From: Planctomycetaceae bacterium | Lineage (GTDB): Bacteria > Planctomycetota > Planctomycetia > Pirellulales > UBA1268 | Assembly (NCBI GenBank): GCA_902629495.1 | Contig: CACORA010000018.1 | Coordinates: forward strand, 1-38,241 | DNA length: 38,241 bases | Direction of reading: 5' to 3' | Shown here: positions 4,843 to 17,274 of the stretch, piece after piece | Layout of the letters: the number at the start of each line of letters is the position of its first letter | Position numbering within the stretch: the stretch's first letter is position 1 | The notes under the pieces: model-generated | The model's database searches: none | What the model was told of the DNA's origin: nothing | The model's input: only the letters and a program-made list of their open reading frames with translations | Program-made: the position numbers and the translations under genes

Positions 4843-7800
4843 ATGCCCCGACGTGACGACCTCCACACAATCCTTCTTATTGGCTCCGGTCCTATTGTTA
4901 TTGGACAAGCATGTGAATTCGACTACTCCGGTACTCAGGCGTGCAAGGCACTTCGTGAGGACGGCTATCGAGTCATATTGGTGAATTCAAACCCAGCCAC
5001 CATTATGACTGATCCAAACACAGCCGACCGCACCTACATCGAGCCCCTGACCTGTGAGATGCTAGAAAAAGTGATCGCCGTTGAGAAGCCGGATGCAGTG
5101 CTCCCAACACTTGGTGGTCAGACGGCACTGAATTTAGCTATGGATCTTGAACGACGTGGAATTCTCGCCAAGTACGGCGTGGAAATGATTGGTGCAAAAG
5201 CTGATGCCATCAAACGAGGAGAGGATCGAGAAACATTCAAAGAGACGATGCAGAAGATCGGACTGGATACGTGTCGTGGACGTATCGTTCGGAGTTTAGA
5301 CGAAGCACGAGAAGTGCTTGCTGAAGTTGGACTGCCAGCAGTTATCAGGCCAAGTTTTACACTCGGTGGATCAGGTTCAGGCGTTGCCTTTAACCGCGAG
5401 GAGTTCGATCATAAAGTCCAGCGTGGCCTTGACCTGTCACCAGTGAGTGAAGTGTTGGTTGAGGAGTCAATACTTGGTTGGAAAGAATATGAAATGGAGG
5501 TGATGCGAGACGCTGATGACAATGCAGTCGTGATTTGTTCAATAGAAAATTTTGATCCATGTGGTGTTCATACGGGTGATTCAATCACAGTCGCACCAGC
5601 AATGACACTTACAGATAAACAATATCAGCGGATGCGGGATGCGAGTTTTGCCGTCATAAGATCGATTGGTGTCGAGACGGGTGGTTCAAATATTCAATTT
5701 GCTGTTCATCCAGAGACTGGAAGAATGATTGTCATTGAAATGAACCCTCGTGTTAGTCGTTCCTCGGCTCTTGCCAGTAAGGCGACGGGTTTTCCGATAG
5801 CCAAAATCGCAGCCAAGCTGGCTGTGGGTTGGCGTTTGCATGAACTGCCAAATGATATTACGCGGAAAACAAAGGCGTGCTTTGAACCAGCAATTGATTA
5901 TGTTGTGGTGAAGGTGCCTCGATTTGCCTTTGAGAAGTTTCCTGAGGCTGACAGTAAGCTGACCACTCAGATGAAAAGTGTTGGTGAGACGATGGCCATC
6001 GGCCGGACGTTCAAGGAAGCATTTCAAAAAGCACTACGTGGCCTTGAGGTGGGCTCGTTTGGGTTTGGTTGCGATGGCAAGGATTTATGGGGCACCTCCG
6101 CAGAGCCTTTGCTTGATGACATTCGTGCTCGAGTTGCAACACCAGACCCCGATCGGGTGTGGTATCTTCGTTATGCAATAAAGGCTGGCATGACCATAGA
6201 GGAGTTATATCGATTGACGTCGATTGATCCATGGTTTTTGGATCAACTTTTTCAAATCGTTGAGCTTGAAAATCGGATTCGAACGTCTGGGCCTCTGAAA
6301 TCTATTGAGTCATCACTCTTGCGACAAGCAAAGCAAGCAGGTTTTTCAGATCGGCAACTTGCAGTACTGCTTGGTAGTTCTGAAATTGACGTTCGTGAAG
6401 AACGTAAACGTCATCGAATAGTTGCTACGTATAAATCTGTTGACACATGCGCTGCCGAGTTTGAGGCAGAGACGCCGTACTACTATTCCACGTGGGAAGA
6501 TGAGGATGAGACGCGACCAAAGGATAAATCAAAGAAAAGGGTTATGATTCTCGGTGGGGGGCCCAATCGAATTGGGCAAGGAATAGAGTTTGACTACTGT
6601 TGCTGTCATGCGAGTTTTGCTCTTCGTGACATGGGTTTTGAAAGCATCATGGTGAACTCTAATCCGGAAACTGTGAGTACTGACTATGACACAAGCGACA
6701 TGCTGTTTTTCGAGCCGCTTACGTGTGAAGATGTGCTGAACATCGCAGATCGAATACAGCCTGACGGAGTGATTGTACAGCTTGGGGGGCAGACTCCTCT
6801 GAATCTTGCAAGAGCGCTTGACGCTGCAGGTCTTCCTATTATTGGCACCACTGTTGATACCATTGAGATGGCGGAAGATCGTGAGAAGTTTCGTGAACTT
6901 CTTGATCGCTTGAAACTTAAGCAACCCGCAAGTGGTATTGCGCGTACTCTTGAGCAGGCTCGTCGTGAGGTGCTACGGATTGGTTTCCCGTCACTCGTGC
7001 GTCCAAGTTTTGTGCTAGGTGGTCGTGCCATGGAAATTTGTTACGACCAGGTTCAATTTGAGCGATATGTGGCGGAGGCCTTCGCGGTAGCCCAAGGTCA
7101 GCCAGTCTTAATTGATCGATTTCTTGAAGATGCCATTGAGGTAGATGTTGACTGTATTTGTGATGGAAACGATGTCATTGTGGCTGGAGTGATGGAGCAT
7201 ATTGAAGAGGCAGGAGTTCATTCAGGTGACTCAGCCTGTTGTATTCCGCCCCATAGCCTCTCGCCAGAATCCATTTTAGAGATAAAAACGGCTGCCGTTG
7301 AAATGGCACGAGCTCTCAGCGTTATTGGTTTGATGAATGTTCAATTTGCTGTGAAAAAAGAAGATGGTAAGCCGACCCTTTATGTGATTGAGGTAAATCC
7401 TCGTGCGAGTCGAACAGTACCGTTTGTAGCAAAAGCAACTGGATTGCCAGCGGCGAAAGTTGCCGTAAAGGTTATGACTGGCATGACACTATCTGAGCAG
7501 GGTGTTACTGAGGACCCAGTCCCGGCTCATATGAGCGTGAAGGAGAGTGTTTTTCCTTTTGTGAAATTTGCAGGGGTTGATATTGCCTTGGGCCCGGAAA
7601 TGAGAAGCACTGGTGAAGTAATGGGAATCAGTGAGCACTTTAGTATTGCATTTGCGAAGAGTCAGATAGCCGCTGGAATTCTATTGCCAGAAACTGGTCG
7701 GATATTTGTGAGTGTGGCAAGCCTTCAGGCTAAGTCAGTAATGGTAAAAGTAGCACCAAGGCTCGTGAATCTGGGTTTTGAATTGATTGCAACTGAAGGT

Positions 7801-9667: not shown

Positions 9668-12012
9668 TGGTTTTTCCAGATATTCCTGACATACCTCGGC
9701 CGTTGACAGCCCCAGGGTATCATGAGATCCCAAAAGTAACTGCCCGGACACTCGAGGGACTTGAGTGGATCCTAAAAACGGAATTGGAAAACCTCGGAGC
9801 GGTTGACTTCCGAGTTGGCCGACGAACGGTTGAGTTCTCTGCACCTCGGGGCCATGAAAGAGAAGTGCTCTATCGTTCTGTGCTTGAGAGTCGGACAGCC
9901 ATTCGTATTCTAGAACCACTTGGTCGTTTTCGTGTGGATTCTCCAGAAGCACTCTATGACGCAGTCAAGAATATTGACTGGGCTGAACAATGTGATCCGT
10001 CAGATTCTCTGCGAGTCGATGCCAGAATTCATGATACATTTCTTACGCATTCTTTATATGCGGCGCAAGTGGTAAAGGATGCGATTGTAGATCAGTTTAG
10101 AGAGCGATTTAGAAAGCGTCCCAGTGTCCAGCTTCGTGGAGCAACGCTTCGGCTTTCAATCCATTTAGTTGGTCATGTTGCAACTGTTTTTCGTGATGCT
10201 GCGGGACGTTCACTTCATCAACGAGGTTGGAGAGTAAAAAGTATTGATGCACCGTTGTCAGAACCATTGGCCGCAGGGGTTCTTGCTTGTGCCGGTTGGT
10301 GGCAACCACATGATTTGAGTCACAGGACCACACATCTTCTTGATCCATTTTGTGGATCAGGAACTTTTCTGATTGAGGCAGCTTCAATATCCGGGAAAAT
10401 AGCTCCTGGTTTGTGGCGTGCACGTGAACAAGGCCATGGTTTTTTTCGATTTAAGGATTTTGATCACGTTCTCGCAAATCGACTTGTTGATACATTGGAA
10501 AGTCGTGTTCAATGCCCCGATCATGTTTTTTATGGAAGCGACCTTGATCCTCAAGCAGTACTTGTTGCAAAAGCAAATGCGCAGGCAGCAGGAGTATTAG
10601 AGCGCATTGTTATTGAGCAAAAAAACTTTGAGGATGTTCGTTCGCAGGCTGCTTCGGGTTTCGTGGTTACGAATCCGCCGTATGGTGAACGACTCCCAGT
10701 ATCGCGTTCGGCTGCTTTATTTCGTCGGATTGGTGATTGGCTCGTGCATCAATGTGGAGGTTGGAACGCTGTGGTGCTGGCTGCTGACATATCAGCCGTG
10801 AAACATCTGGGACTTCGTCCATCATTTCGGTGTCCGTTGAAAAATGGACCAATTCAATGTCGTTTAACAGGGGTTGAAATCAGACGCCGAGTAGGTCGTG
10901 AAGAGAAGTTGACTATTGCGAAAGAATCAAGCGTTTGTGACAGTCAACGAGTACAGCATACAGAATGCAAACAGAGCGAAACCACGTTATCAGATGATAG
11001 AGCATCCTCAGTGGAGGCTGGCATAGGGTCAGCAGGACGACGTCAATCTCGTTCAATCGAACACCAGATAATAGATTTTCGGCGTAGGTTGGCTAAACGA
11101 TTTAAGCATCTTTCTAAGTGGGCGAGACGTCAGGAAATAGAAGCATTTCGACTCTATGACCGTGACATTCCAGAGATACCGTTAGTCATAGAAATATATG
11201 CAGGTTGGTTGCATGCAGCAGAATATGATCGTCCACATGGGCGGACGGACATAGAACATGATGTGTGGCTGTCAAGGATGATGGAAGCTGCCGCTGAAGA
11301 GCTAGGCATAGTACCAAGCCATGTATTTCTCAAGGCACGACGAAGGCAGCGTTTTGGGAATCAGTATGAAAAACTTCAGAGTCGCAAAGTGACTCATGGT
11401 GTGCGAGAAGGAGGGCTCGTGTTTGAAGTAAATCTCTCAGATTATCTTGATACAGGCCTCTTTTTAGATCACAGACAGACTCGAGCGATGATTCGATCCG
11501 AGGCAAAAGGCAAGCGTTTTTTGAATCTTTTTTCTTATACGGGAAGTTTTTCTGTGTACGCAGCTGCAGGAGGTGCGGCTGAAACAACCAGCGTTGATCT
11601 TTCTAATACGTATCTCGACTGGACTCGTACGAATCTGATCACAAACAGTTTTGTGGATACTGAAAAACACCGCCTCGTTCGTGATGATGTTCGTGATTTT
11701 CTGGAGTATCGTCAGTTGCGTGAAGAACCTCCGTTTGACTTGATCGTTGTGGATCCACCAACATTTTCTCGTTCGGCCAAAAGCACAAAAACATGGGAGG
11801 TCGAGCGTGATCATGCTGATTTGCTTGCCTCCGTGGCAAAGAACCTTGTTTCCAGTGGTGTTGTCTTTTTCTCAACAAATTATAAGCGGTTCCATTTTGA
11901 ACAGCATCGCATAGAGAATGATTACACAATTCGTGAAATCACAAGACAAACAATTCCAGAAGACTTTCGAAACCAAAGAATTCATCGTACATGGCGTCTG
12001 ATAAAAAAATAG
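9667..12012 (+). CDS. rlmL: Bifunctional 23S rRNA methyltransferase RlmKL
   Basis: The 781-residue protein fuses two methyltransferases as in E. coli RlmKL (about 700 residues). Residues about 20-190 hold a THUMP/ferredoxin-like RNA-binding region. The RlmL domain (about 195-400) has DPFCGSGT (226-233) for SAM and NPPYGERL (336-343), the N2-guanine catalytic motif. The RlmK domain (about 490-781) has 'FLNLFSYTGSFSVYAAAGGA' and VVDPPTFSRS. The products in E. coli are m2G2445 and m7G2069 of 23S rRNA. A polar linker of about 70 residues (about 405-475), rich in Ser, Glu and Arg, separates the halves and explains the extra length. The GTG start at 9667 overlaps the preceding stop by one base. Confidence 0.95.
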   Translation: MVFPDIPDIPRPLTAPGYHEIPKVTARTLEGLEWILKTELENLGAVDFRVGRRTVEFSAPRGHEREVLYRSVLESRTAIRILEPLGRFRVDSPEALYDAVKNIDWAEQCDPSDSLRVDARIHDTFLTHSLYAAQVVKDAIVDQFRERFRKRPSVQLRGATLRLSIHLVGHVATVFRDAAGRSLHQRGWRVKSIDAPLSEPLAAGVLACAGWWQPHDLSHRTTHLLDPFCGSGTFLIEAASISGKIAPGLWRAREQGHGFFRFKDFDHVLANRLVDTLESRVQCPDHVFYGSDLDPQAVLVAKANAQAAGVLERIVIEQKNFEDVRSQAASGFVVTNPPYGERLPVSRSAALFRRIGDWLVHQCGGWNAVVLAADISAVKHLGLRPSFRCPLKNGPIQCRLTGVEIRRRVGREEKLTIAKESSVCDSQRVQHTECKQSETTLSDDRASSVEAGIGSAGRRQSRSIEHQIIDFRRRLAKRFKHLSKWARRQEIEAFRLYDRDIPEIPLVIEIYAGWLHAAEYDRPHGRTDIEHDVWLSRMMEAAAEELGIVPSHVFLKARRRQRFGNQYEKLQSRKVTHGVREGGLVFEVNLSDYLDTGLFLDHRQTRAMIRSEAKGKRFLNLFSYTGSFSVYAAAGGAAETTSVDLSNTYLDWTRTNLITNSFVDTEKHRLVRDDVRDFLEYRQLREEPPFDLIVVDPPTFSRSAKSTKTWEVERDHADLLASVAKNLVSSGVVFFSTNYKRFHFEQHRIENDYTIREITRQTIPEDFRNQRIHRTWRLIKK

Positions 12013-12026
12013 ATAGATCCTGTCCT

Positions 12027-13271
12027 ATGGAAAGAACACCTCGATTACTCATGAAGTTAAGAGGAGTATGTGCATGTGTATTGATTATCGGTGTCAGTTG
12101 GTTGTGCATCAGTTGCCAATCATCCGATCCTCGAGTCATTCGAATTATTTCCAGCCTTCCAAGGACTGGAGTTGATAAACAGCAGGCAGACTTGATTGTT
12201 CGCGGTATTCGAATGGCAATTGAGGAGATTGAGGGACGGGTGGGAGTGTTCCGAGTTGAGTATCTCGATCTTGATAACTCAACTGCCGCTGCTGGTCAGT
12301 GGACGAGTGAAGCGGAGGCGGCAAATGCCCGTCGAGCTCTCCAGGACCCAAATGTGGTTGCATACATTGGAACCCTCAATTCTGGTGCGGCAAAAGTATC
12401 CATGCCAATCTTAAATTTTGGAGACCTTCTGATGGTGTCTCCTGCTGCAACTGCAGTGGGGCTTACAAAACCAGGTTTGGGTGAGCCAGTTGAGCCAAGT
12501 GTATATCGTCCAAAAGGTACCATCAATTTTGCTCGTGTTGTACCAGCAGACGATCTGCAAGGAACACTTTCAGCTGAGTGGGTAAAACGTCGAGGGTTTG
12601 AAACAGTCTATGTTCTCGATGATGGGCAGGTGTACGGTCGAGGTATTGCAGATTTATTTGCTGCCCGCTGCCGAGAAATTAATGTCAATGTTCTTGGGCA
12701 CGACTCTATTGATCCGAGAGCGCGTGAATTTAAGTCACTCATGACAAGCGTTAAGTCAACATCCCCCGAGCTTATCTATTTTGGGGGTTCTGTACAAAGC
12801 AAGGGAGGTCAACTTGCAAAAGATATGTCCAGCGCTGGAATTGACGTACCACTCTTAGTGCCCGATGGTTGCAAGTCAAAAGCATTCATTGATTCCGCTG
12901 GAGCCAATCTGTTGGAAGGCCGATGTTTCGTCACATTTGGTGGCTTGCCTCCTGAGCGACTTACAGGTAAGGGCGCAGCATTTGTCGAACGCTATCAGCA
13001 TTTGTACAGTGAACTCCCGGAAGGTTATGCAGTGTATGGTTATGAAGCTGCAAGAGTGGTTCTAGCTGCGGTTGAGGAAGTGGGCAGTAAAAATCGATCT
13101 CAAATAACGAAATCAGCGCTCAATATGGAAAACTTTGATGGAGCGCTTGGGGAATGGGAATTTGATGAAAATGGAGATACAACGCTCGATTCACTTTCAG
13201 TAAGCGTTGTGAGGGAGGGTCGCTTTGAGTTTATTGAGACCATTACATCGGATGAAGTGGATAGAGAGTAA
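12027..13271 (+). CDS. Branched-chain amino-acid-type ABC transporter substrate-binding lipoprotein (LivK-like)
   Basis: The ATG at 12027 gives 414 residues; an upstream start at 11991 would overlap rlmKL and put a charged leader before the signal peptide. A hydrophobic signal segment ends at CISC, a lipoprotein-like site. The mature part is a type I periplasmic-binding fold (Peripla_BP_6/LivJ-K): 'VRGIRMAIEEIEG', 'AYIGTLNSGAAKVSMPILNF', a long two-lobe body and 'YGYEAARVVLAAVEE' near the end. It should capture a small solute outside the membrane and deliver it to the LivH/LivM permeases encoded just downstream. Branched-chain amino acids, amides and urea are all possible; the sequence does not decide. 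Confidence 0.9.
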   Translation: MERTPRLLMKLRGVCACVLIIGVSWLCISCQSSDPRVIRIISSLPRTGVDKQQADLIVRGIRMAIEEIEGRVGVFRVEYLDLDNSTAAAGQWTSEAEAANARRALQDPNVVAYIGTLNSGAAKVSMPILNFGDLLMVSPAATAVGLTKPGLGEPVEPSVYRPKGTINFARVVPADDLQGTLSAEWVKRRGFETVYVLDDGQVYGRGIADLFAARCREINVNVLGHDSIDPRAREFKSLMTSVKSTSPELIYFGGSVQSKGGQLAKDMSSAGIDVPLLVPDGCKSKAFIDSAGANLLEGRCFVTFGGLPPERLTGKGAAFVERYQHLYSELPEGYAVYGYEAARVVLAAVEEVGSKNRSQITKSALNMENFDGALGEWEFDENGDTTLDSLSVSVVREGRFEFIETITSDEVDRE

Positions 13272-13306: not shown

Positions 13307-14233
13307 GTGTCCATTCTGTTCTTGCTTCAGCAGTGTGTGATAGGGCTTACAAACGGATCTCTTATAGCACTTGTGGCTCTCGGTTACACAATGGTTTATG
13401 GAGTTCTTCGCTTCATTAATTTTGCGCACGGTGATTTGATCATGCTCAGTGCATGCCTTGCGCTTTCTCTTGTGGGTCCGATGGGCCTTGTTTCCACAGG
13501 ACAACCACCAAGCCTTGGAACATGGATTGGTATTTACGCACTTGTGATCTTTTGTGGTCTTTTCTGTGGATTGCTAAGCATGGTAGTTGATCTTTTGGTC
13601 TATCAGCCCTTGAGGAATGCTCCACCTCTTGCTCCCCTTGTTTCGGCCATTGGTGTATCCCTAATCGCAATGAATATAGGACTATTCTGGATTGGTGCTC
13701 CAGACAGATCATTTCCTCAGCCCTTACCTTCAGAAAACCTTCTTCGCTTTCAAGAAATTCAATTTACATGGAATGATTTACTTGTCGTGTTAGTGGTCAT
13801 GCCGTTGATTGCTCTCGCCATGGCCTTGATTCGTCTCACTCGCTTTGGGAAAGCCTTGCGAGCAGTGTCAGAAGATCGTACGGCAGCTGCACTCATAGGT
13901 GTCGATGTCAATAAGGTTATTAGGGCTACATTTTTCCTCAGTGGCTTTTTGGGAGGAGCAGCAAGTGTCGTGACAGGATTGTCAGCGAATACCATTAGCT
14001 ATCAGATGGGCTTCCAAACAGGATTTCTGGCAATTACAGCGTCAGTTCTTGGAGGCCTGGGAAGTCTGAGAGGAGCTGTCATTGGGAGTTTCGCGGTGGG
14101 CTTGGTTGGTGCACTTTCAACAGCCTATGTCGGAGAACGTTGGGCCAATGCGTTTGTCTTTATTGTTTTACTGATCGTGCTTGTTTTTCGTCCGGAAGGA
14201 TTGCTGGGACAACGTGCACGGGAGGTGTCCTGA
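13307..14233 (+). CDS. livH: LivH-type ABC transporter permease
   Basis: This is a 308-residue multi-helix permease. A GTG start at 13307 is preceded by a good ribosome site, GAGGAG at 13292-13297. 'GLTNGSLIALVALGYTMVYGVLRFINFAHGDLIML' character at the N-terminus is nearly diagnostic for LivH, and the cytoplasmic coupling loop with 'ASVLGGLGSLRGAVIGSF' is near the C-terminus (about 245-262). It forms half of the membrane channel with LivM. The stop overlaps the livM ATG by one base (TGATG), indicating translational coupling. Confidence 0.94.
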   Translation: MSILFLLQQCVIGLTNGSLIALVALGYTMVYGVLRFINFAHGDLIMLSACLALSLVGPMGLVSTGQPPSLGTWIGIYALVIFCGLFCGLLSMVVDLLVYQPLRNAPPLAPLVSAIGVSLIAMNIGLFWIGAPDRSFPQPLPSENLLRFQEIQFTWNDLLVVLVVMPLIALAMALIRLTRFGKALRAVSEDRTAAALIGVDVNKVIRATFFLSGFLGGAASVVTGLSANTISYQMGFQTGFLAITASVLGGLGSLRGAVIGSFAVGLVGALSTAYVGERWANAFVFIVLLIVLVFRPEGLLGQRAREVS

Positions 14234-15291
14234 TGTCTGATGTGAAAAACTGGTTTCGGGAACATTGGGAGATTTTTGCATTTGTTGCTCTTGCACTTGC
14301 TCCTTTTGGTGTGTCGTCACTTCGTGGTGCGTTAGGAGGCCAAGTCACGATTTTGTTCATATACTGCATTCTTGCATTAGGCTTGAATGTGATGGTTGGA
14401 TATACCGGACTTCTCCATCTAGGCATTGCTGCCTTCTTTGGAATAGGAGCGTATACCATGGCCATTCTCACGGTGCCACTATTCCCGTTTCAGATGGGTT
14501 GGTTAGCGGCAACTATTCTGAGTATTGCTGTTGCAGCAAGTATCGGTTTTGCTTTGGGTACACCGACCCTTCGGCTTCGTGGTGATACGTTAGCGGTTGT
14601 TACATTAGGTTTTGGTGAGTTTGTGACAGCTAGCCTTCGTAACCTTGAACAGGTTACTGGGGGTATGAAGGGTCTGAATCCTGTCCCCCCTCCGGGCGCG
14701 GGTGTCTCGATCATGAATATCGACCTTGGTACAGCCTTTGTTGTAGATCCGAGATGGTTTTACTTTCTTACACTCTCTGCTCTTGCTGGAGTTGTTTGGG
14801 CAATGAAGCGACTAGAAAATTCAAGATTGGGAAGAGCTTGGGTAGCCGTGCGTGAAGATGCTACAGCAGCAGCCTCTCTTGGAATCTCTGCCACTCAAAC
14901 AAAGCTATCTGCTTTTGCTATGTCAGCAGCTGTTGCGGCCTTAGCAGGCTGTCTATACGCCGCGATGTTGTCAACAACAGCTGATCCGAATGCATACAGT
15001 TTCAACCGTTCAATAATGATATTATGTGCTGTCATTCTTGGAGGGCTTGGAAGTGTCCTCGGAACATTAGTTGGGGTAACGATTCTTGTTGGTTTCGATA
15101 CCGTTATTCTTCCTTGGATAGACACACTTCTTCAGCAGCTCCTTAATCATTCTCCCGAAGGAGTTTTATCGTTTGGTGGGTGGAGACTAGCAATGGTGGG
15201 ACTTGTTCTCGTCATGGTGATGCGGTTTCGTCCGGAGGGATTGATACCTTCACGTCAGCTCGCAGCCGAACTCCGTGGAGGACAGCAGTGA
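14233..15291 (+). CDS. livM: LivM-type ABC transporter permease
   Basis: The ATG at 14233 gives 352 residues; a longer frame from 14140 would read back into livH and is rejected. 'YCILALGLNVMVGYTGLLHLG' and 'AFFGIGAYTMA' are hallmark LivM segments, and 'ILCAVILGGLGSVLGTLVG' is the coupling loop that touches the ATPase. The 'TLRLRGDTLAVVTLGFGEF' section is also conserved. It pairs with LivH. The stop overlaps the GTG start of the livG-like gene. Confidence 0.94.
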   Translation: MSDVKNWFREHWEIFAFVALALAPFGVSSLRGALGGQVTILFIYCILALGLNVMVGYTGLLHLGIAAFFGIGAYTMAILTVPLFPFQMGWLAATILSIAVAASIGFALGTPTLRLRGDTLAVVTLGFGEFVTASLRNLEQVTGGMKGLNPVPPPGAGVSIMNIDLGTAFVVDPRWFYFLTLSALAGVVWAMKRLENSRLGRAWVAVREDATAAASLGISATQTKLSAFAMSAAVAALAGCLYAAMLSTTADPNAYSFNRSIMILCAVILGGLGSVLGTLVGVTILVGFDTVILPWIDTLLQQLLNHSPEGVLSFGGWRLAMVGLVLVMVMRFRPEGLIPSRQLAAELRGGQQ

Positions 15292-16604
15292 AGTCAAAAC
15301 TCTCTGCAAAGGCATCAGATATTCCTATTCTGGATATTGATCGAGTATCAATGCGTTTTGGTGGTCTTGTTGCAGTGACCGACCTTGATCTCGATGTTTC
15401 TGATGGACAGTTCGTTGTATTAGCTGGCTCGGAAGGAGCAGGAAAAACAACTGTTTGTGACTGCATCAGCGGTGAATGTGAGCCAACAAATGGTTCCGTA
15501 CGTTTTCGAGGACGAAGGCTTACTCGGTCTTTTGGTCCAGGTGTTTTCTGGATGGCAATAAGCATCGGATTGATTACTGGATTATTAGTAGCAGCAGCAG
15601 CAGTGGATATAGATCGGTTATGGTTAGCAGTTGTTAGGCGGGGTATGGTTTTCGATAGATCATTTACTTTTGATTCCGCACGTCATCGCCTAAGAAGTTA
15701 TTTTCGTGCCGAATTAGCCTTGGATCGATTAGCAGGAAAATGGCGAGTGGTCAGTGCAGACGGCCGAGATGTTCTTGTGGTATGTGATGATTTTGAAGAA
15801 GCAAAGTCCCTAAAAAATCAATTACAAGCTGCTGTAACCGCACGCCGCATCGGTCCGAGTACAGTACCAAATACATCGGATATGGCAGATGCTGCTGAGC
15901 CATCACAGCGACAGCCTCCCATCCCAGATGACACACTCAATCGTCTAGCTGCTGGAAAATCTCGCATTCGTATTCGTGGTTGGTCAGCTCTTTTGGTAGG
16001 TTGGATTATTGGAGCAACTGGTGTCATTGTAATCTGGAGTCGTAGTCGAGGTTCACCGCATATTGCTGCACGTGCAGGAATAGCCCGCACATTTCAAAAC
16101 CCTCGATTATTTGAAAATATGACCGTTCGAGAGAACGTACTTGTTGCCCTTGACCGGATGATTCCGGGTGGTTCCATCGCACTTTTACTTCGAACACCTG
16201 CGAACCATCGTGGAGAACAGCATGCGCACATAAAGGCAAATAAAATACTCAAATTTGTGGGTCTCGGTTCGATGGCAGATCACTTGGCTTGTGATACAAG
16301 TCTTCTTGATCGTAAACGTTTGGAAATTGCACGGGCTTTGGCTACTGGTGCAGATCTCATTTTACTGGATGAGCCAATGGCCGGTCTTGATGAAAAGGGT
16401 GTTGCTGTTGTTATGGAGCTGCTTCACCGCATGAAGGATCAAGGACTTACCTTGCTGATGACAAGTGGTAGTTTGAGTTTCCCAAGTGATATTAGTGATA
16501 AAGTGGTTGTGCTTGATCGAGGGGTGAAAATAGCTGAGGGTGATCTCACAAATGTTCGCCATGACTTGCGAGTAAAAAAACGTCCTGTAACAAGTTTGCT
16601 TTAG
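15288..16604 (+). CDS. LivG-like ABC ATPase with inserted membrane-spanning domain
   Basis: Translation starts at the GTG at 15288, overlapping the livM stop (GTGA) with GGAGG about 7 bases upstream, giving 438 residues against about 255 for ordinary LivG. Residues 12-80 match LivG, with Walker A GSEGAGKT (47-54). At FRGRRLTR the protein departs from the family and re-joins it at ARAGIARTFQNPRLF (261-275), whose Gln270 is the Q-loop. The intervening 175 residues hold a helix at about 85-106, a soluble part of about 120 residues, and a second helix at about 231-250. Walker B LILLDEP (357-363) is intact, but the LSxGQ signature reads TSLLDRK (337-343) and the H-loop His is Gly394. So it probably binds ATP, while normal hydrolysis is doubtful. 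It shares the operon with livK-H-M-F. Confidence 0.88.
   Translation: MKSKLSAKASDIPILDIDRVSMRFGGLVAVTDLDLDVSDGQFVVLAGSEGAGKTTVCDCISGECEPTNGSVRFRGRRLTRSFGPGVFWMAISIGLITGLLVAAAAVDIDRLWLAVVRRGMVFDRSFTFDSARHRLRSYFRAELALDRLAGKWRVVSADGRDVLVVCDDFEEAKSLKNQLQAAVTARRIGPSTVPNTSDMADAAEPSQRQPPIPDDTLNRLAAGKSRIRIRGWSALLVGWIIGATGVIVIWSRSRGSPHIAARAGIARTFQNPRLFENMTVRENVLVALDRMIPGGSIALLLRTPANHRGEQHAHIKANKILKFVGLGSMADHLACDTSLLDRKRLEIARALATGADLILLDEPMAGLDEKGVAVVMELLHRMKDQGLTLLMTSGSLSFPSDISDKVVVLDRGVKIAEGDLTNVRHDLRVKKRPVTSLL
15528..16052 (+). other. Inserted two-helix domain within the LivG-like ATPase
   Basis: These bases encode residues about 81-255 of the LivG-like protein, absent from ordinary LivG. The layout is a membrane helix (about 85-106), an Arg-rich stretch with several aromatic residues, a compact section beginning GKWRVVSADGR (about 150-160) and running through DDFEEAKSLKNQL (167-179), a Pro/Ser-rich linker (about 186-220), and a second helix (about 231-250). 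The frame is open throughout and no flanking repeats were seen, so this is not an obvious recent insertion. The section with W-VV-DGR followed by an acidic helix resembles small unclassified domains of the 'W-V-V-DGR-V' kind, but I do not recognise the family. Confidence 0.8.
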
Positions 16605-16614
16605 GGAGAATCGC

Positions 16615-17274
16615 ATGCCGTTACTTGTCGTGAATCAGGTGAATGTTTCTTTTGGACCAATCGCCAAGGTGATCAACGCTTCTTTTGAGGTGGCTGAGGG
16701 AGAATCAGTGTTGATTACTGGTAAAAGCGGTGCCGGTAAAACGTCACTCATGCTTGCAATACTTGGTGTTGTGCCGATCCAGTCTGGTGACATCTATTAC
16801 CGTCGCCGTGCGCTGGTAGGCTTAATGCCACATGAGATTATCCGATTAGGTATTGGTTTTTGTTCTGAAAAACGAAACCTTTTCTCACGTATGAGTGTTA
16901 AAGAAAACTTGGAGTTAGGAGGATATACCCAGCGTGATCGCTGGCAATTGCGTCGCGATATTGCCGAGGTGTGCGAACTGTTTCCTTCACTTGGTGCTCA
17001 AATGCAGTCCAAAGTTACCGAACTTGCTGGAGAAGAGCAGCAGATGCTCGCGATCGCCCGGGCGTTCGTGAGTCGTCCTCGACTGTTGTTGCTTGATGAA
17101 CCGCTGAGATGTTTGTCTCATTCGAGAGTGCATCAACTTGTTGAGGTAATCGCAGCATTTACAAGGAGAGGAATAAGCAGTGTCATCGTTGAGCAAAATG
17201 TCAGTCCCGTTTTTTCTCAGTCACGAGGTTGGGTTATGGAACAAGGAAGCCTGAGGCAATACGAGGCAGTATAA
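16615..17274 (+). CDS. livF: LivF-type ABC transporter ATPase with altered signature motif
   Basis: This 219-residue protein is slightly short for LivF (about 235). Walker A is GKSGAGKT (36-43), and 'RMSVKENLELGG' (92-103) is strongly LivF-like. Walker B is LLLLDEP (157-163), and VEQN (192-195) is the usual LivF replacement of the H-loop. The signature, LSGGEQQM in ordinary LivF, reads LAGEEQQM (137-144), so its second Gly is Glu. The D-loop, normally SLGLAP, reads LRCLSHS. These are unusual at positions that contact ATP across the dimer and may reflect co-evolution with the odd LivG partner. The gene starts 10 bp after livG, with AGGGAGA upstream of the ATG. It is convergent with recQ. Confidence 0.9.
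   Translation: MPLLVVNQVNVSFGPIAKVINASFEVAEGESVLITGKSGAGKTSLMLAILGVVPIQSGDIYYRRRALVGLMPHEIIRLGIGFCSEKRNLFSRMSVKENLELGGYTQRDRWQLRRDIAEVCELFPSLGAQMQSKVTELAGEEQQMLAIARAFVSRPRLLLLDEPLRCLSHSRVHQLVEVIAAFTRRGISSVIVEQNVSPVFSQSRGWVMEQGSLRQYEAV

Follow-up and report, generated by a model that had tools for sequence, protein, structure and literature searches.

The ATPases of ABC importers are taken to be soluble, peripheral subunits, and the locus described here raises the question of what an apparently membrane-spanning segment does inside one of them. The window, by which we mean the whole stretch of 38,241 nucleotides that was analysed (contig CACORA010000018.1 of a Planctomycetaceae bacterium), contains a livK-H-M-G-F operon where, based upon Pfam matches and gene order, a livG-like gene lies between livM and livF. 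The genes concerned are:

11991..13271, + strand: livK-like periplasmic binding protein (Peripla_BP_6, E 1.8e-31)
13307..14233, + strand: livH permease (BPD_transp_2)
14233..15291, + strand: livM permease (BPD_transp_2)
15288..16604, + strand: LivG-like ABC protein interrupted by a membrane insert, with its catalytic motifs partly lost
16615..17274, + strand: livF, with an altered signature (LAGEEQ for LSGGEQ, 17023-17040) and an altered D-loop
17315..19135, - strand: convergent recQ-like helicase gene (named by eye), the syntenic marker for the missing livF of the degenerate clade considered below

The livG-like reading frame is intact and uninterrupted; it begins with a GTG codon, encodes 438 aa and shares a 4-nt overlap with livM, whose stop is at 15291. 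The PDB relatives of the livK-like protein are Leu/Ile/Val-type and other amino-acid binding proteins. The GC content of the whole window is 47%, compared with 67% in the nearest relative for which DNA was available (L028).

A preliminary description of this sequence had proposed an in-frame insert of about 175 residues with two hydrophobic helices, and both the hydrophobicity peaks and the junctions agree with it. The insert ends 10 residues before the Q-loop ARTFQN, and its parts are as follows:

15528..16052, + strand: insert, residues 81-255, following the Walker A half and preceding the Q-loop
15537..15605, + strand: insert helix 1, hydrophobic, residues 84-106 (a helix in the AlphaFold2 models)
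15606..15926, + strand: segment between the helices, residues 107-213 (helix, three strands, helix and a disordered linker; AlphaFold2 pLDDT moderate to low)
15978..16037, + strand: second hydrophobic stretch of the insert, residues 231-250, within the predicted helix 214-253

The two hydrophobic peaks have mean Kyte-Doolittle values of 2.21 (19 residues from 86) and 1.94 (from 231), and a third, weaker peak (1.43, from 283) belongs to the C-terminal ABC half and not to the insert. Pfam recognizes ABC_tran in two stretches of the protein, the better one at residues 31-80, and for the insert itself it gives no match, even with E as high as 1. In the AlphaFold2 model (mean pLDDT 75 overall, and 43-80 per ten-residue block, that is low to moderate, in the insert) helices at 84-119 and 214-253 flank a small helix/three-strand/helix unit, and no fold match was found for this moderately confident insert model.

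A database search listed 120 homologues of the window protein (identity 54-98%, coverage 94-100%), and all 121 of the aligned proteins have the insert, at a length of 170-181 aa. With the insert region of a relative as the query, 288 clusters were found at E 0.001 or better among 7996 candidates. When one genome per species was scanned (84,980 species), 51 loci were obtained, including two pairs in the same assembly; 50 of these are under planctomycete names and one is titled 'bacterium isolate bin72'. The insert was matched in 61 of 98 genomes among the relatives of one carrier, in 77 of 396 genomes drawn from the order of the carrier (profile A4) and, by means of the long-insert profile, in 5 of 392 genomes in a phylum-wide draw. 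The placement of the insert in a livK-H-M-G-F operon is supported by the 51 contig loci, where LivM precedes livG in 49 and LivF follows it in 47; the other contigs start or end inside livG. L062, L066 and L070, three distant carriers whose ABC motifs are intact, have neither a livK nor a liv permease or livF in the stretch that was read, and thus the insert is not always found in a liv operon.

The same position in LivG is occupied in several different ways in the phylum. A LivG with a short hairpin, used as the query in the phylum-wide draw, detected LivG in 79 of 392 genomes at E 1e-50 or better, and 65 of these loci were read for the spacing between the Walker A and the Q-loop. This spacing was the ordinary 37-43 residues in 49 of the 65 and 65 residues without any hydrophobic peak in one, and the remaining 15 contained a membrane insert: short in 12, long in G008 and L089 (363 residues between Walker A and Q-loop in the latter), and of an unrelated-looking kind with four peaks in L149. 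Altogether, 13 genes have at this site a short hairpin whose helices are separated by few residues, and other Planctomycetota have membrane inserts that are shorter (about 80 aa) or longer (about 320 aa) at the same point. According to the preliminary description, the same insert in many ordinary LivG proteins would make it a known family variant. This holds by half: the insert is widespread, but it belongs to one planctomycete LivG subfamily, and most of the LivG read have ordinary spacing. Based upon these sequence comparisons, the insert is a mark of a planctomycete LivG subfamily with a predicted membrane hairpin before the Q-loop. As for the origin of the hairpin LivG, a free quick tree requires two changes; when these proteins are placed in a single clade the score is higher, and with an AU p of 0.865 this tree is not rejected. 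The four-peak LivG of L149 (G433) groups with ordinary LivG and is perhaps an independent gain, and the LivG of L121 (G457) has an insert of about 25 residues, without a hydrophobic peak, near the same point, so that the site seems to be insertion-prone. In some distant relatives, reading by eye indicates seemingly two copies of a W-V/D-G strand unit. The LivG of L069 (G077, 5018-6415, - strand) shows by eye a second stretch with two hydrophobic segments behind the Q-loop, besides the usual hairpin, and this protein may have four membrane helices.

The ABC domain in which the insert resides has changed considerably in the window protein, as seen from its motifs:

15426..15452, + strand: Walker A GSEGAGKTT, residues 47-55, kept
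16083..16100, + strand: Q-loop, residues 266-271, kept
16296..16319, + strand: degenerate ABC signature TSLLDRKR, residues 337-344 (LPYGDQRR in intact relatives)
16356..16376, + strand: Walker B LILLDEP, residues 357-363, kept
16458..16475, + strand: degenerate H-loop MTSGSL, residues 391-396 (LIEHHM in intact relatives)

In the window and its closest clade, TSLLDR stands in place of LPYGDQ in the signature, MAGLDE in place of AAGMNP in the D-loop and TSGS in place of IEHH in the H-loop. The signature Tyr and the H-loop His are kept in 114 of the 120 listed homologues; the other six (P0002-P0007), together with the window and L028 (which may be the same as P0006), have lost the signature and the H-loop and have kept the Walker A and the Q-loop Gln. 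P0007 has an Ala for the Walker B Glu, unlike the window, P0002-P0006 and L028. The LivG C-terminal domain PF12399 is absent from the window protein and P0002-P0007 and is listed for P0008-P0121. The NCBIfam LivG model, whose cut-off is 362 bits, gives a score of 177 bits to the window protein, 307 to an intact insert-bearing relative and 76 to a degenerate one. The preliminary view that the rest of the protein is otherwise LivG-like does not hold, since its signature, D-loop, H-loop and LivG C-terminus have been lost. In our tree the window groups with L028 in a supported clade, next to which stands the intact L036. The LivF signature is also altered in L028 (LSAAEQ), the intact relatives that were read having LSGGEQ. 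As the signatures of both LivG and LivF are altered in the window, it follows from the general ABC mechanism, with its composite ATP sites, that both composite sites of a LivG/LivF dimer would be affected. Considering the genes within the window only, ATP hydrolysis by LivG/LivF of this lineage is probably weak or absent, but some ATP binding or hydrolysis may be left in LivG because its Walker A, Walker B and Q-loop are kept.

This decay has gone much further in a second clade, consisting of nine draft genomes (loci L071-L074 and L076-L080), which is either sister or parallel to the window clade. The consensus GxxGxGK[ST] is matched by none of the nine Walker A stretches. In all eight readable proteins the signature is absent and an Arg occupies the position of the Q-loop Gln, and all seven proteins that are readable at the H-loop have lost it. 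No LivF was detected in these nine draft genomes, where identity is 28-34% for the matches with an E of at most 1e-15, versus 47-59% for LivF in five controls, and no second LivG either, the matches other than the genome's own being 29-36% identical versus 55-58% in three intact controls. In all eight loci with sequence at this place, the recQ-like gene comes after livG, in the slot of livF; the distance between these two genes is 18-44 bp in seven of them and 349 bp in L073, where the gap holds one 110-aa ORF that is too small for livF. In the window, 711 bp holding livF separate the same two genes. LivK, LivH and LivM are present in the seven degenerate loci that reach upstream (L079 shows LivM alone and L080 ends inside livG). 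No stop codon was found inside the insert frame in any of the nine genomes, and by its coordinates the single TGA in the livG of G049 is the stop at the frame end. The dN/dS values for two degenerate pairs are 0.046 and 0.051 for LivK, 0.069 and 0.032 for LivH, and 0.061 and 0.079 for LivM, which indicate purifying selection, and the stretch 60-150 of the degenerate LivK keeps 89-94% of its invariant residues. The GC content of the degenerate loci is 48-50% in six and 64% in two.

The evidence that the insert has outlasted the motor comes from comparing it with the C-terminal ABC half of the same proteins. Among intact proteins, the insert is the more conserved of the two in 137 of 6441 pairs when 114 database entries are compared and in 1 of 1035 when 46 loci are; it is so in 15 of 15 pairs of the window clade (with the near-copy P0002 omitted) and in 28 of 28 degenerate pairs; because the pairs share ancestry and are not independent, these counts are a description and not a test. 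The dN/dS values are 0.035-0.067 for the insert versus 0.12-0.39 for the ABC half in four degenerate pairs, three of which share members, and 0.065-0.22 versus 0.05-0.06 in three intact pairs. With 47 intact proteins as the reference for invariant columns, the window protein keeps 69/81 in the insert, 68/108 in the C-terminal ABC half and 27/37 in the N-terminal one, and eight degenerate proteins keep 64-67 of the 81 insert columns and 38-50 of 98-108 in the C-terminal ABC half. Since the insert is kept under stronger purifying selection than the decayed ABC half, it seems to have some work that is independent of ATP hydrolysis. This suggests that the predicted membrane-crossing segment, retained while the motor decays, does a job of its own.

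The permeases provide further insight into the partners of the two ATPases. In the segment of LivH which we take, by its motif and its expected site, to be the coupling helix, 4 invariant columns are kept and 15 lost in the livF-less clade, compared with 129 kept and 72 lost elsewhere (p 3.6e-4, a value that does not come from a blind test, as the segment was first singled out by a window scan). For the corresponding LivM segment the numbers are 16 kept and 7 lost, versus 169 and 63 elsewhere (p 0.81), and this segment thus behaves as does the remainder of LivM. In the window itself the LivH segment is largely kept (14/19 invariant columns). The decay of the LivH segment, with that of LivM spared, is most simply explained by docking of LivF on LivH and of LivG on LivM. 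The selective decay of one coupling helix thus suggests that LivH is paired with LivF and LivM with LivG, and that the dead LivG is still situated on LivM.

Based upon these observations, we propose that the hairpin is an additional membrane and periplasmic subunit of the LivK-LivHM complex, more than a tether, and that in the livF-less clade the complex is motor-less; this proposal appears to us about evenly poised between right and wrong. The two hydrophobic helices would pack in the membrane beside LivM, where LivG docks, and the exposed alpha/beta middle segment would be placed on the periplasmic side, where LivK binds, and would participate in assembly, gating or sensing of the ligand state. 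In intact relatives, the hairpin could couple LivK binding to the nearby Q-loop. In the livF-less clade, the complex most likely would lack an ABC motor of its own and could function, e.g., as a gated channel, an exchanger or a receptor, with LivG as the carrier of the insert. A broader version, which is plausible and to which we give somewhat less than even credence, is that the motor was shed twice, or by one graded route with the window midway, leaving LivK, LivH, LivM and the hairpin as an ATP-independent amino-acid receptor, channel or exchanger for which the dead ABC domain is a frame. The positive-inside rule favors a topology with the middle segment outside in all 13 short forms; for 69 long forms the rule speaks for this topology in 17 and against it in 33, with 19 ties including the window, and the segment before helix 2 of the long inserts is strongly basic, contrary to what this rule expects. 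Helix 2 is under a Kyte-Doolittle value of 1.3 in 9 of the 69 long inserts.

The alternative that fares best is that of a pure tether, by which the hairpin fastens LivG to the membrane or to LivHM and takes no part in sensing or gating. A membrane anchor for the ATPase, as envisaged in the preliminary description, is the simplest reading of a two-helix insert, and it is in keeping with the 13 genes that have short hairpins at this site, as a conserved soluble part is not required for anchoring and is scarcely present in the short forms. However, the insert persists where the ABC domain has decayed and LivF is gone. Further, conservation of the middle segment in the long family equals that of the ABC halves (mean entropy of 0.41 bits at residues 107-194 in 114 intact proteins, compared with 0.41 and 0.39 for the ABC parts), and it persists even after the decay of the ABC motifs. 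The conserved residues of this segment include K151-W152-R153 and D158-G159. We consider a pure anchor unlikely, but a contender of some weight. It is less probable that the decayed complexes are driven in trans by an ABC motor from elsewhere in the cell. ATPases are shared between sugar importers, and other ABC ATPases about 30% identical are present in the degenerate genomes; nevertheless, a partner of LivF or LivG grade is lacking in 9/9 of the draft genomes, and the LivH docking segment is decayed in the seven members with LivH. That the window and livF-less clades are simply losing the transporter, the insert being slower to decay, would account for the loss of LivF and of the ABC motifs and for the long LivK, LivH and LivM branches in these clades, but it is quite improbable in view of the uninterrupted insert frames, the low dN/dS values of LivK, LivH and LivM and the well preserved LivK stretch. 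Lastly, that a frameshift, chimera or misassembly at 15528 or 16052 produced the insert, a possibility raised at the outset, is hardly conceivable, for the same junctions occur in the 120 listed homologues and in the 51 contig loci of planctomycete assemblies and nothing was found in its favor.

In comparison to the LivG of high-affinity branched-chain importers (NCBIfam NF008449; PDB 1g6h, MJ1267), the window protein is alike in its livK-H-M-G-F operon, in the alignment of both ABC halves and in having a Walker A, Q-loop and Walker B; it differs in that a hairpin splits the ABC domain and in the loss of the signature, D-loop, H-loop and PF12399. The earlier statement that no LivG with such a layout has been described agrees with the literature searched, mostly without subscription papers, where neither a membrane-spanning insert in an ABC importer ATPase nor a motor-less Liv system was found. 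The SMC and Rad50 ATPases also contain an extra domain inside the ABC ATPase domain. We know of no membrane-spanning insert in either SMC/Rad50 or CFTR NBD1. The regulatory insert of CFTR NBD1 is reportedly likewise an extra domain within the ABC ATPase domain (PMC3776845), and this inserted position is the feature that these proteins share with the window LivG. ABC exporters with one degenerate nucleotide site resemble the window in having lost catalytic residues in an ABC dimer; they reportedly keep one working site, whereas in the window the signatures of LivG and LivF are both altered and in the other clade LivF is missing (PMC12038006, PMC7756269).

A membrane hairpin beside the LivG Q-loop would break the rule of the peripheral ATPase across a planctomycete lineage, and through it the periplasmic side could be in direct connection with the coupling site. 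A natural experiment on an ABC importer after the loss of its motor is provided by the livF-less clade. Regarding the binding proteins, a further strong Peripla_BP_6 gene besides livK was present in 13 of 14 genomes searched, the exception being G025, and in the four degenerate genomes that were looked at in this respect (L099, L100, L101 and L106) the extra gene is without an adjacent liv permease or ATPase.
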